A DNA stretch of 34,840 bases from a delta proteobacterium MLS_D (GTDB lineage Bacteria > Desulfobacterota > Syntrophia > Syntrophales > UBA2210), in the NCBI GenBank assembly GCA_002030015.1, contig LQBH01000014.1, positions 1-34,840 of the forward strand, written 5' to 3'. The notes under the pieces are model-generated. The model did not search any database. It was not told the origin of the DNA and saw nothing but the letters and a program-made list of their open reading frames with translations. Made by a program: the position numbers and the translations under genes. Below, piece after piece: positions 22,544 through 26,881 of the stretch (positions within the stretch are counted from its first letter, which is position 1; each line of letters starts with the position of its first letter).

Positions 22544-22606
22544 TGTTACGATACCGCCCGGGTGTTCGATAGGTGTTGCGAATAATTGAGGATTGTGAGA
22601 CATAGC

Positions 22607-22629
22607 AAAAACGCCCGCAGAGGCAGGCG
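22607..22629 (-). terminator. Intrinsic terminator on the minus strand upstream of the first USP gene
   Basis: On the minus strand CGCCTGC and GCGGGCG pair (7 base pairs, one G-U) around CTCT and are followed by five T. It would stop transcription coming leftward across the USP gene from the aldehyde oxidoreductase gene. On the plus strand it forms a hairpin in the USP leader. Confidence 0.5.
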
Positions 22630-22672
22630 AGTACTACGACACGGGCAATTACAATCAGGGAGGATGAATGCC

Positions 22673-23158
22673 GTGATACCCAAGATCAAAAGAATATTGT
22701 ATACGACCGATCTTTCCGGGAACGCCGGGCACGTCTTCGGGTATGCCGTGAATTCGGCGCGGAAACACAACGCCGAGATGATTCTGCTTCATGCCATCGA
22801 GCCGCTTCCGCAAAACGCGCGCATGTGGATGGAGCTCTACGCGGATGAAGGCAGACGGGCGAAACTGTTTGAAGAGAATCGGCAACAGGTGACTGAGATG
22901 ATCCGTGAACGGATCAGGACATTCGCGGAGCGTGAACTGGCTGATGATCCCGAAGGTTCCGTACCCATAGCCGACATCATCGTCGAGGAAGGATACCCCG
23001 CCGAGGTAATTCTCAAAAAGGTGGATGAACTGAAGTGTGACATCATCATCATGGGAACCCACAGCAAGGGCGTCATTACCCACGCCTTTCTCGGAAGCGT
23101 GGCCGAACGGGTACTGCGGCGCGTAAGAAAACCGGTGTTCATTATTCCGCAACCCTGA
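22673..23158 (+). CDS. Universal stress protein (UspA family)
   Basis: A 161-residue single-domain USP. It begins IPKIKRILYTTDLSGNAGHVFGYA, carries a central DIIVEEGYPAEVIL block, and ends with the nucleotide-binding loop MGTHSKGVITHAFLGSVAERV. In that loop the second glycine of the G-x2-G-x9-GS ATP motif is Ser, so ATP binding is uncertain. GTG 22673 was chosen because AGGGAGG (22657-22663) sits 9 bases before it; the in-frame ATG 22664 touches that site. A frame start at 22586 is unlike the family. USPs respond to starvation and redox stress by unknown mechanisms. Convergent with the AOR-ADH gene. Confidence 0.88.
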   Translation: MIPKIKRILYTTDLSGNAGHVFGYAVNSARKHNAEMILLHAIEPLPQNARMWMELYADEGRRAKLFEENRQQVTEMIRERIRTFAERELADDPEGSVPIADIIVEEGYPAEVILKKVDELKCDIIIMGTHSKGVITHAFLGSVAERVLRRVRKPVFIIPQP

Positions 23159-23226: not shown

Positions 23227-26079
23227 TCAGTAGAAATCGCGGAGCAGCTCGAGCAGCTGTCGCTCTTCGACGGGAGCGGGATTTCCCACCGTGTTGACGA
23301 CGTCCTTGGATGCTTCAAAGGCTATTCGGGGCAGATCCTCCTCGGGTACGCCCAGGTCCCTGAATCGGGTGGGCGCTCCGATTTCCTCGTAAAGTTTCAG
23401 CAATCCTTCCTCGAGATTCCGCGACCGGTTCAGTGTCCAGGCGATGTCCTCGAATTCCTGTCGGCAGGCTTTTTCATTAAACCTGGCGAAACAGAGCAGC
23501 GACGGCGTGACGGCCCTTCCGTGGGATATGTGATACCGGGCACCGATGACGTGGCCGAGACTGTGACCGACGCCCAGTCCCTTGGTAAAGGAGACACCGC
23601 CGTAAACCGCCGCCATCGCCATGTCGGTCCTGGCCTGCAGGTCGCCGGGGTCGGCGCAGACCTTTGGCAGGCTCGATCCGACGAGCTTGATCCCGTAAAA
23701 GGCCAGAGCGGAATAGTAGGGATGATAAGGCATGAGTGTCCCCGTGTATCCCTCGATGCAGTGGGCGAGGGCATCAATGCCGGTTTCGGCGGTAACGCGC
23801 TTCGGCAGCGTGCTGGTCAGCTCGGGGTCGATGATGGCGAGTTTCGGAACGATGAGTTCGCTCATGATAATAAATTTGATGCCCCGTTCGTGGTCGCTCA
23901 ACACCGCGTAGGTATTCGCCTCGCTTCCCGTTCCCGAAGTTGTGGGAATACAGATGACGGGAGGCAGGGGGTTCCGTATCTTGGCTGTTCCTCCCGCCAG
24001 GCTTTCGAATTCCGACATGTGCCCTTCATGCGTGACCCGCACGGAAAGGGCCTTGGCGGCGTCCATGGAACTTCCTCCGCCCATGGCGATAATGCCGTCG
24101 CAGTCTTCCCGGTGATAGAGATCTCCCAGGCGGTCTATCTCCTCGATGGGCGGATCGGCTTCGATATCACTGAAAAGAACCGTTTCAACCTTGTGCTTCT
24201 CCAGTCGTTTTATCACCTCGTCGGCGCGTCCCATTTCTTTCATAGTTGGATCGCAGATGAAGAGCGCTCTTGTCATGCCGAGTGCCGCCGCCTGACCGCC
24301 GATTTTCGAAAGTACGCCCGCTCCGATCATGAGCGGCGGCAGTGAAGTGATGCGCACCTCCCAGATTTTCCGTGGTTCCCTGAACGCGTCCATGCGGTCC
24401 CAGATACCCCGGATTTCGCTGTCGTCAACGTCGAATACCCGGTTGGTCGGCGGCAGCGGTTCGGTTCGGTAGAAAGCGGGGTAAGGCTCCCAGATAGTGC
24501 TGAACTCAGCCCCGCTGTTGAAGGTGTTTTCATCTTTCAGCGTCTGTTTGGCTATTTCAATGACGTCGTTGCCCGCCAGTGATGTTCCGTAGCGGCTGTT
24601 GAGCAAATCGGCGAAAAACCCGTAGAGGGACGCCTGGCCTCCCGGCACGGAATTGAGACAATACCCGATGGTGTCGCAGGCCGCCGCACGGATCTGGAAT
24701 GCCAGGGAATTGTCCGCCTGTCCCGTCTTCCTCCCGGGCATTTTGTAGGTGAGACCGGCATTGTGGTCGGCGCCCATGGGGCTGGTGGCGTACGTGACGC
24801 CGATGCCCTTGGCGGCCCGCCCGTCGTGCGCCGGCAGTCCCTGGCCCTTGAAAGCGGGAACCCGATCGACGTTCAGGAATTTTGCCGTTTCAACGACGCC
24901 CTGTCCCAGGATGGCCCCGAAGCCGTCGCCCTTTTCTATTTCATCGAGCAGTTTCAGGGCGCCCCCGGCGTCGCCCATGCGCAGCCTTCCGCCGGAGACA
25001 GCCACGGCCAGGGTGGCGCCTGTTTCGATGAGATCAATGCCGATGTCGTCGCAGCGGTGTTTCAGCCGGGCGATATCATCGAGTTCGGTAATGTCGAGAT
25101 TCGTGCCCAGCAGGCTGATCGCTTCATATTCCAGGGCCGAGCAGAGCAGTTGCCCGTCGGGACCATTGTATCTGATAGAACACTGCACCACGCAACCGGG
25201 CATGCAGGCGTGCATGGAGCCGCCCCGTTCCCACAGCCGGTCCCTGATCGCTTCGCCGCTGACCTTTCTGAAATCTTCATGCCTGCCTTCGCTGTAGCCC
25301 CGGGTGGCCATACTTCCCTGCATGCTCAGACTTGAAACGGCGAGTGGCGTACCGAAGGTGTGAAACAACTGGCAGCCGGCGTCTTTCCTGATGATCCGTA
25401 CCCATTCTCTCACTGTTTCCCGGAAATGTGCGGAGTCGGCCAACTCGACTGTTCCCGTGTTCTCGGCGTCTATGACAACGGCCTTGAGTCCTTTCGATCC
25501 CATGACGGCGCCGACGCCTCCGCGACCGGCGATTCTGCAGGGATCTCCGTCCATGTCTCCCAGGGCGATTGACGCGGCCCCGTACCGCCGCTCGCCGGCG
25601 ACGCCGATCGTGACGAATGTCGGGCGTTTGCCGTATTCTTTGGAAAGCTCTTCCACGAGGCGGTAATTATTCATGCCGATGTAGGCATCAGCCGGTTCCA
25701 GTGAGGCGCCGTCCTTTGATATTTTCAGAAGATACCAGTGTCCCGGTTCGGGCGCGCCTTCCACGATGACCGCGCGGATACCCAGCTTGTCAAGCTTCTG
25801 GGCCGCGGGCCCCCCCACGTTGGATTTCTTGATGCCCCGGGTGAGCGGGCTCTTGCATCCAAAACAGATGCGTCCCATTTGAGGCGCCATTGTGCCGGCC
25901 AGCGGACCTGCGGCGATGACGAGTTTGTTGCCGGGTTCGAGAGGATCCGTCTCGGGCGGTACTTCCCTGTTCATTATTTTCGCGATAAGTCCCCGGCCTC
26001 CGATCAGGAGCCAGTCCGGAGACAGTTCTTCCGTCGTTACAGTCAGCGTTGACATGTCAACGCGCAGAATCTTCATCAC
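23227..26079 (-). CDS. Fusion of aldehyde:ferredoxin oxidoreductase and iron-containing alcohol dehydrogenase
   Basis: One uninterrupted 950-residue frame. Residues 1 to ~560 are an AOR. It begins MKILRVDMSTLTVTTEELS and IGGRGLIAKI, and has AGPLAGT and the GRGGVGAVMGSKGLKA cofactor segment. The predicted [4Fe-4S] ligands are C292, C296, C300 and C474 (DTIGYC). The first pair is CxxxC (CMPGC), not the CxxC of Pyrococcus AOR. Residues ~575-950 are a group III alcohol dehydrogenase with NAD(P) motif GGGSSMD (667-673) and metal ligands D769, H773, H839 and H853, all present. AOR interconverts carboxylates and aldehydes with ferredoxin on a tungsten or molybdenum pterin; the second half would interconvert aldehyde and alcohol with NAD(P)H. 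Starts GTG 26079 and ATG 26076 are adjacent, after AGGAG. A USP gene lies 30 bases upstream on the same strand. Confidence 0.93.
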   Translation of the reverse strand: MMKILRVDMSTLTVTTEELSPDWLLIGGRGLIAKIMNREVPPETDPLEPGNKLVIAAGPLAGTMAPQMGRICFGCKSPLTRGIKKSNVGGPAAQKLDKLGIRAVIVEGAPEPGHWYLLKISKDGASLEPADAYIGMNNYRLVEELSKEYGKRPTFVTIGVAGERRYGAASIALGDMDGDPCRIAGRGGVGAVMGSKGLKAVVIDAENTGTVELADSAHFRETVREWVRIIRKDAGCQLFHTFGTPLAVSSLSMQGSMATRGYSEGRHEDFRKVSGEAIRDRLWERGGSMHACMPGCVVQCSIRYNGPDGQLLCSALEYEAISLLGTNLDITELDDIARLKHRCDDIGIDLIETGATLAVAVSGGRLRMGDAGGALKLLDEIEKGDGFGAILGQGVVETAKFLNVDRVPAFKGQGLPAHDGRAAKGIGVTYATSPMGADHNAGLTYKMPGRKTGQADNSLAFQIRAAACDTIGYCLNSVPGGQASLYGFFADLLNSRYGTSLAGNDVIEIAKQTLKDENTFNSGAEFSTIWEPYPAFYRTEPLPPTNRVFDVDDSEIRGIWDRMDAFREPRKIWEVRITSLPPLMIGAGVLSKIGGQAAALGMTRALFICDPTMKEMGRADEVIKRLEKHKVETVLFSDIEADPPIEEIDRLGDLYHREDCDGIIAMGGGSSMDAAKALSVRVTHEGHMSEFESLAGGTAKIRNPLPPVICIPTTSGTGSEANTYAVLSDHERGIKFIIMSELIVPKLAIIDPELTSTLPKRVTAETGIDALAHCIEGYTGTLMPYHPYYSALAFYGIKLVGSSLPKVCADPGDLQARTDMAMAAVYGGVSFTKGLGVGHSLGHVIGARYHISHGRAVTPSLLCFARFNEKACRQEFEDIAWTLNRSRNLEEGLLKLYEEIGAPTRFRDLGVPEEDLPRIAFEASKDVVNTVGNPAPVEERQLLELLRDFY

Positions 26080-26109
26080 GTCCTCTCCTTTTTATTATTA
26101 TTGTCCCGC

Positions 26110-26547
26110 TTAACGCTTGATCACGATGACTGGCTTCCGGGACTTTTTTATGACCTGTTCCGATACAGACCCGAGGAGCATTTCCCTCAGGTTGCTCTTG
26201 CCGTGGGAACCAATGATGATCGCCGATACCCCCGCCGATTTCGCCGTTTTGAGTATTTCCTGCGAAGGAATGCCCTCGGAGATCACGACTTTCACGGCAA
26301 GACCCGCCTTCGCGAGTGCGTTTGCCGTCTGGGCGGCCTTTTCCGCCGCCCCGTCCTCTATCACTTTTCTTGTCCGCTCGTATTCGGCGGGCGACCAGTG
26401 AACAACAGCATCAAGGTTTCTGCTGTCGATGATGTGCTGTACCACCACCTCCTCGACAGTTCCCGCTTTCCCCAGTTTTTTGAGAGCCGAAATGACCTTT
26501 TTCGAGATTTCCGAAAAATCGGTGGGATATAATATTTTTCTGAACAT
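26110..26547 (-). CDS. Universal stress protein (UspA family), upstream of the AOR-ADH gene
   Basis: A 145-residue USP with MFRKILYPTDFSEISKKV at the start and a canonical ATP-binding loop IGSHGKSNLREMLLGSVSEQV (G-x2-G-x9-GS intact). ATG 26547 was chosen because GGAGG lies 7 bases upstream; the frame continues to 26601 without family similarity. The AOR-ADH gene begins 30 bases after its stop, with no terminator seen between them, so the two are probably one operon. Unlike the USP at 22.7 kb it keeps all ATP-loop glycines, so the two are likely functionally distinct paralogues. Confidence 0.92.
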   Translation of the reverse strand: MFRKILYPTDFSEISKKVISALKKLGKAGTVEEVVVQHIIDSRNLDAVVHWSPAEYERTRKVIEDGAAEKAAQTANALAKAGLAVKVVISEGIPSQEILKTAKSAGVSAIIIGSHGKSNLREMLLGSVSEQVIKKSRKPVIVIKR

Positions 26548-26881
26548 GCCGTTCCTCCTTTCCGTAAAGCCGGCGCGCCCACGACTCCTGTTCCGCACCA
26601 TGCCGCATGACCGCGAGATAATATGCTTACCACCAATGGCGTTCTTCGATCAAGGCATGCTGTGAAAGCGGCCATTGCCGCAGAATGCGGAATCACCTTT
26701 CAGTACAGGAAAGACGCTTTTTTGAAAAGAAGAAATATCCGGACCGGAAAACCACCGGCGAAAACCATCCGCGGTTGCTCTTTTGAAGCACCTTCGTATA
26801 CAATACACAAAAAAGTCCATTGAATCGATGATTTCGGAGGGAAACGGTTCGAGCCGTCATCACGGGATTTGGAGTGTTCTC
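26548..26881. other. 334-base divergent intergenic region, USP / SRAP genes
   Basis: No gene is supported here. It holds two overlapping hairpins (26668-26690) and an A/T-rich stretch with a possible extended -10 TATACAAT at 26797-26804 for the SRAP gene, with only a poor -35 (TTGCTC, 18 bases upstream). No convincing sigma-70 promoter was found for the USP gene. No LexA-like CTGT-N8-ACAG box was noticed. Confidence 0.5.
26668..26690. repeat. Two mutually exclusive short hairpins
   Basis: GCGGC (26668-26672) pairs with GCCGC (26677-26681), and CCGC (26678-26681) can instead pair with GCGG (26687-26690). The shared arm means only one can form at a time. Confidence 0.35.

Follow-up and report, generated by a model that had tools for sequence, protein, structure and literature searches.

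Direct reduction of unactivated carboxylic acids ranks among the hardest biological redox steps, and aldehyde:ferredoxin oxidoreductases (AORs) are described as the sole known enzymes to achieve it (PMC9295118). The acid/aldehyde couple lies at approximately -520 to -560 mV and requires ferredoxin, and alcohol dehydrogenases (ADHs) remove the aldehyde product, reducing it to alcohol with NAD(P)H (PMC10816221). This AOR-ADH pathway with separate enzymes is well established and underlies the alcohols made in gas fermentation (PMC10816221); an earlier note on the DNA studied here had cited it for acetogens. The same pathway is found in Thermoanaerobacter and in engineered Pyrococcus (PMC10816221, PMC12096430). 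Here we describe a gene in a 34,840-nt stretch of deltaproteobacterial DNA (contig LQBH01000014.1; hereafter the window) that matches the AOR-ADH pathway in predicted reactions, cofactors and domain families. However, whereas the pathway uses separate proteins, the gene specifies a single polypeptide, in which an AOR is followed by an iron-type ADH (Fe-ADH).

Several other described enzymes resemble the fusion in part. AdhE also carries a C-terminal Fe-ADH behind an aldehyde-handling domain, and its structure (6scg_A) superposes on our model of the ADH half with a Z score of 50.4. However, the first domain of AdhE is a CoA-acylating aldehyde dehydrogenase, whereas that of the fusion is predicted to be a tungsten AOR acting on the free acid with ferredoxin. 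The AORs of Pyrococcus furiosus (1aor, homodimeric) and Clostridium autoethanogenum (9g7j) have the fold of residues 1-565 (Z of about 48) and share the predicted cluster cysteines and tungsten-cofactor residues, but they are only about 30% identical to the fusion, have a CX2CX3C rather than a CX3CX3C motif, and lack an ADH. The nearest solved folds for the ADH half are the NAD-dependent methanol dehydrogenase of Bacillus methanolicus (8zwd) and a 1,3-propanediol oxidoreductase (3bfj); both are stand-alone enzymes with about 31-32% identity, a level at which the substrate is not transferable. Finally, AorABC of Aromatoleum aromaticum belongs to the AOR family and likewise ties acid/aldehyde chemistry to a pyridine nucleotide. 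It does so with three subunits, reducing NAD+ via a separate one, whereas the fusion carries an ADH instead, and no AorA- or AorC-type neighbour was found among the annotated genes of the window.

What is new, as judged from the open-access literature, is the single-protein form; its domain families and the pathway were known before. The earlier note did not recognise this domain order as that of a described enzyme, and we likewise found no description of an AOR-Fe-ADH fusion in open-access sources, although one may exist elsewhere. Nor does it appear in the searched parts of a 2025 review of tungsten enzymes, a paper on AOR subfamilies and a survey of domain fusions in molybdoproteins.

Gene structure and predicted fold

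The fusion is encoded by one open frame on the minus strand (26079..23227), giving 950 amino acids when counted from the GTG at 26079; the plus strand across 23227-26079 is full of stops. The real start is probably not this GTG but the ATG at 26076, since a Shine-Dalgarno-like sequence, AGGAGAGG (26082..26089, minus strand), lies ahead of it and the protein would then begin in line with the conserved MKILRV start of its relatives. The gene as we read it therefore spans 23227..26076 (minus strand; 949 amino acids), with residues numbered here from the GTG. A universal stress protein gene (Pfam Usp; 26110..26601, minus strand) ends 33 nt upstream, and the two genes probably share a transcript. 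A second universal stress protein gene is present on the other side of the fusion (22586-23158, plus strand). Promoter and terminator signals were not in excess over shuffled sequences, and an Rfam scan of the window returned no RNA element at gathering scores, so no tungsten or molybdenum riboswitch was seen at that threshold. The window's genome contains moaA. It also has a separate AOR adjoining a separate ADH (G000:C31:6154-9124; ADH first), which are 39% and 31% identical to the halves of the fusion.

Pfam recognises four domains in the protein, AFOR_N (residues 3-204; 204.4 bits), AFOR_C (222-543; 168.4 bits), Fe-ADH (583-752; 160.2 bits) and ADH_Fe_C (763-949; 131.2 bits), the first two against gathering cut-offs of 29.8 and 27 and the last two also far above their gathering scores. 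We predicted the fold of the whole protein with AlphaFold2 from a 44-row alignment (pLDDT 92.3, pTM 0.89). In this model the AOR half (residues 1-565; 24385..26076, minus strand), which comprises tungstopterin-binding AOR domains 1-3, superposes on 1aor over 547 residues at 1.8 Å (Z 48.4). The Fe-ADH half (residues 573-950; 23230..24363, minus strand), made up of a Rossmann-like NAD-binding domain and a helical metal-binding domain, superposes over 371 residues at about 2 Å on 8zwd (Z 54.0) and 3bfj (Z 53.6). The best PDB matches from Foldseek were all AORs or Fe-ADHs, each covering one half, and a search of BFVD gave nothing significant. The superposition of both halves on solved folds indicates that both enzymes are complete and leaves a linker of only about seven residues (approximately residues 566-572; 24364..24384, minus strand). 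The lowest-confidence block of the model (pLDDT 66; residues 571-580) takes in the end of this linker, and unfused sister AORs end near residue 566, close to the junction. As modelled, then, the protein is a structurally complete AOR and a structurally complete Fe-ADH in one polypeptide. The frame, the Pfam domains and the model all bear out the view taken in the earlier note, namely that one continuous frame encodes a full AOR and then a full Fe-ADH.

More specific assignments were sought with NCBIfam models. No equivalog reached its cut-off (best score 272.9 bits against 550), and the 4-hydroxybutyrate dehydrogenase model gave 255.1 bits against 500; neither half can therefore be given a named substrate. 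Similarly, the AdhE model PRK13805 scored 202.5 bits against a cut-off of 951, and the Pfam search found no Aldedh (CoA-acylating aldehyde dehydrogenase) domain, the N-terminal half being an AOR.

Predicted active sites and selection

The cysteines, nucleotide-binding loop and metal ligands listed in the earlier note are all present. Three predicted [4Fe-4S] ligands, C292, C296 and C300 (25180..25206, minus strand), align to C288, C291 and C295 of the P. furiosus AOR (PfAOR), and the fourth, C474 (24658..24660, minus strand), aligns to C494 and is invariant. In a pairwise alignment the first of these cysteines had appeared to be absent, but a multiple alignment ruled this out, showing that a one-residue insertion converts the CX2CX3C spacing of PfAOR into CX3CX3C. 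Across the 44 fused and unfused AOR relatives C296 and C300 are invariant and C292 is at least 90% conserved. A single fused homologue, that of genome G007 (L010/L036), has Arg in place of C292. Additionally, R70, N87, E319, D344 and H439 align to PfAOR R76, N93, E313, D338 and H448, and the DxxG-x-C motif of the AOR family is present (D469, C474). We take R70, N87, E319, D344, H439, D469 and C474 to have catalytic roles. Overall, the predicted tungsten-cofactor and cluster residues are mostly invariant across the 44 relatives.

In the ADH half, the nucleotide-binding loop GGGSS (residues 667-671; 24067..24081) and the predicted metal ligands D769 (23773..23775), H773 (23761..23763), H839 (23563..23565) and H853 (23521..23523), all on the minus strand, are invariant in 14 fused homologues. 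The cofactor-specificity position is occupied by Asp610, invariant in the fused set, which presumably corresponds to the NAD-preferring Asp of other Fe-ADHs. On this basis NAD(H) appears a likelier cofactor than NADP(H).

These data bear on the idea that one half has lost its activity and now plays a structural or regulatory part, so that the fusion works as a single-function enzyme. The loss of C292 in G007 and the long branch on which the ADH half sits would fit such an idea. However, across the fused group the active-site residues are invariant in the AOR half as well as in the ADH half, and purifying selection acts on each (dN/dS of about 0.04-0.13 against close relatives; over the 40 codons at the junction the ratio, based on few sites or saturated, is uninformative). 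We therefore regard the idea as improbable.

Distribution and origin of the fusion

The earlier note had proposed a search for homologues with the same domain order. We found the full-length fusion in 21 of 155 genomes of the window's order, with about seven more genomes carrying it cut by contig ends, and a wider search of the phylum added five further full-length fusions. The total is thus at least 26 genomes with a full-length homologue (49-96% identity), and these belong to eight family-level groups. The named records are mostly metagenome-assembled Deltaproteobacteria, 'Syntrophaceae' or 'Desulfobacteraceae', together with Desulfatitalea sp. BRH_c12 and a fragment from a contig end that is labelled Dehalococcoidia. 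The closest fused relatives are from deltaproteobacterial, Syntrophales-like genomes rather than acetogens, and viral contigs contained no relative. Within the window's order, ADH halves with at least 46% identity exist only in fused form, the nearest unfused ADHs having at most 37%; the ADH half is tightly co-inherited with the fusion.

Could the frame be an assembly or frameshift artefact that unites two adjacent genes? The single suggestive case is that of a close relative, genome G005, in which two contigs break exactly at the junction, but their ends abut with one base missing. Moreover, the identical architecture recurs in many independent assemblies across the whole range of 49-96% identity, which leaves an artefact with practically no credibility. 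The junction near 24,370, singled out in the earlier note for checking, is genuine.

Some other frames turned out not to be fusions of this kind. Those of 1214 and 1094 amino acids in G003 and G011, taken at first as extra fusions, are in fact separate AOR and ADH genes, and an 896-residue frame in G003 is by sequence an aldehyde dehydrogenase-ADH protein. Elsewhere the fusion gene is duplicated in tandem (L171:4934-10900, L072:1884-7850). A different kind of AOR fusion was seen on one deltaproteobacterial contig, where an AOR of the sister group is joined to a pyridoxal-dependent decarboxylase (PF00282; L092:1145-4294, plus strand, 1050 amino acids).

In a tree of AORs the main fused group forms one clade (SH-aLRT 99), sister to unfused AORs, and a contig-end fragment with ADH sequence (L082) falls inside it. 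A second fused group (L095, L155, L156 and L157; about 987 amino acids, 34-37% identity) is placed elsewhere, beside L090, whose AOR and ADH genes are neighbours but unfused, with about 106 nt between them. Forcing all fused AORs into one clade lowered the log-likelihood by 220 and was rejected (p-AU 2e-204). The same constraint on all fused ADH halves, for which few unfused ADHs were sampled, was not rejected (p 0.07). We therefore favour at least two independent origins of the fusion, as shown for the AOR side only.

Proposed function and substrate leads

We consider it probable that the fusion is a bifunctional cytoplasmic enzyme that interconverts a carboxylic acid and its primary alcohol via an aldehyde that is either free or retained locally. 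Its N-terminal half, a tungsten AOR, would carry out the acid/aldehyde step with ferredoxin, through a W-bispterin and the [4Fe-4S] cluster, and the C-terminal iron ADH would carry out the aldehyde/alcohol step, most likely with NAD(H). With only about seven residues between them, the two enzymes would be made in a 1:1 ratio and the aldehyde would be used near its origin. We infer both activities, the use of W rather than Mo, the NAD(H) preference and the proximity coupling. That such a fusion exists in nature suggests an evolutionary benefit of having both steps in one protein, and either direction would gain from joining them. As to the direction in the cell, we give acid reduction a slight preference, with low confidence, the acid/aldehyde step being the most uphill one.

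The opposite direction is a substantial possibility, to which we give somewhat less than even weight. In oxidative alcohol degradation the ADH half would convert alcohol to aldehyde with NAD+ and the AOR half aldehyde to acid with ferredoxin, and the resulting NADH and reduced ferredoxin would be pooled for comproportionating formate or hydrogen production. Such a pattern has been described with separate enzymes in the syntrophic Pelobacter carbinolicus (PMC4275255), the record titles of the fusion hosts resemble syntrophic or sulfidogenic Deltaproteobacteria, and the direction in which AORs are easily assayed is aldehyde oxidation (PMC10816221). However, in the window's genome, which is 96% complete, we detected the large subunit of neither an [FeFe]- nor a [NiFe]-hydrogenase, so hydrogen-based disposal is unsupported there. 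dsrA was not detected in this genome either.

Gene neighbourhoods in relatives offer some indication of substrate. In one Syntrophaceae lineage (L169, L171 and L071) the order is 4-hydroxybutyryl-CoA dehydratase, fusion, acyl-CoA dehydrogenase. The dehydratase (L169:4001-5491) matches the solved enzyme 1u8v over its full length (769 bits over 14-493) and keeps the Cys-x3-Cys and His/Cys cluster region of that enzyme, residues that we presume to act as ligands. In L095/L157, which belong to the second group, a related dehydratase is found close to the fusion, the adjacency being confined to the one lineage and one contig of the second group. Since 115 of the order's 154 genomes carry abfD-like genes, their genome-wide co-occurrence with the fusion carries little weight and only adjacency is informative. 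In L073/L077 the nearby genes include subunits of a succinate-CoA ligase and of a Na+-translocating decarboxylase, and in L173 a 2-hydroxyacyl-CoA dehydratase set. Together, these neighbourhoods suggest a setting of acyl-CoA and dicarboxylate metabolism in the hosts concerned, and for the one Syntrophaceae lineage the best substrate lead is succinate/succinic semialdehyde/4-hydroxybutyrate. In the window itself the fusion sits among UspA and housekeeping genes, with no dehydratase neighbour, a context that is uninformative on substrate.

The same comparison speaks to aldehyde detoxification or dismutation, in which one site would oxidise and the other reduce the same aldehyde. Detoxification of aldehydes has been proposed as a function for several AORs (PMC10816221), and a UspA gene lies directly upstream of the fusion both in the window and in G016 (L033). 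However, this adjacency was seen in only two genera, and the neighbours in L169/L171/L071, L073/L077 and L173 are acyl-CoA and carboxylate genes rather than stress genes; we think this role unlikely.

Returning to acid/alcohol interconversion, a bolder and distinctly tentative version would make the fusion an at least twice-invented, CoA- and ATP-free interconverter in one polypeptide, with the aldehyde kept between the sites, and would have it serve, in some Syntrophaceae, a ferredoxin-driven route from succinate through 4-hydroxybutyrate to crotonyl-CoA. The fusion provides a ready-made construct for tests of aldehyde channelling and of CoA- and ATP-free conversion of acids to alcohols, for which the unfused sister AORs that end close to the junction would be natural controls.

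Two further arrangements were observed. In G173 a ThiS/MoaD-like gene (L165:158-478, plus strand) lies just upstream of the fusion, and in L086:6224-10240 (plus strand) the genes that come after an unfused sister AOR are FrhB-like and indolepyruvate-oxidoreductase-like, as judged from the starts of their sequences.
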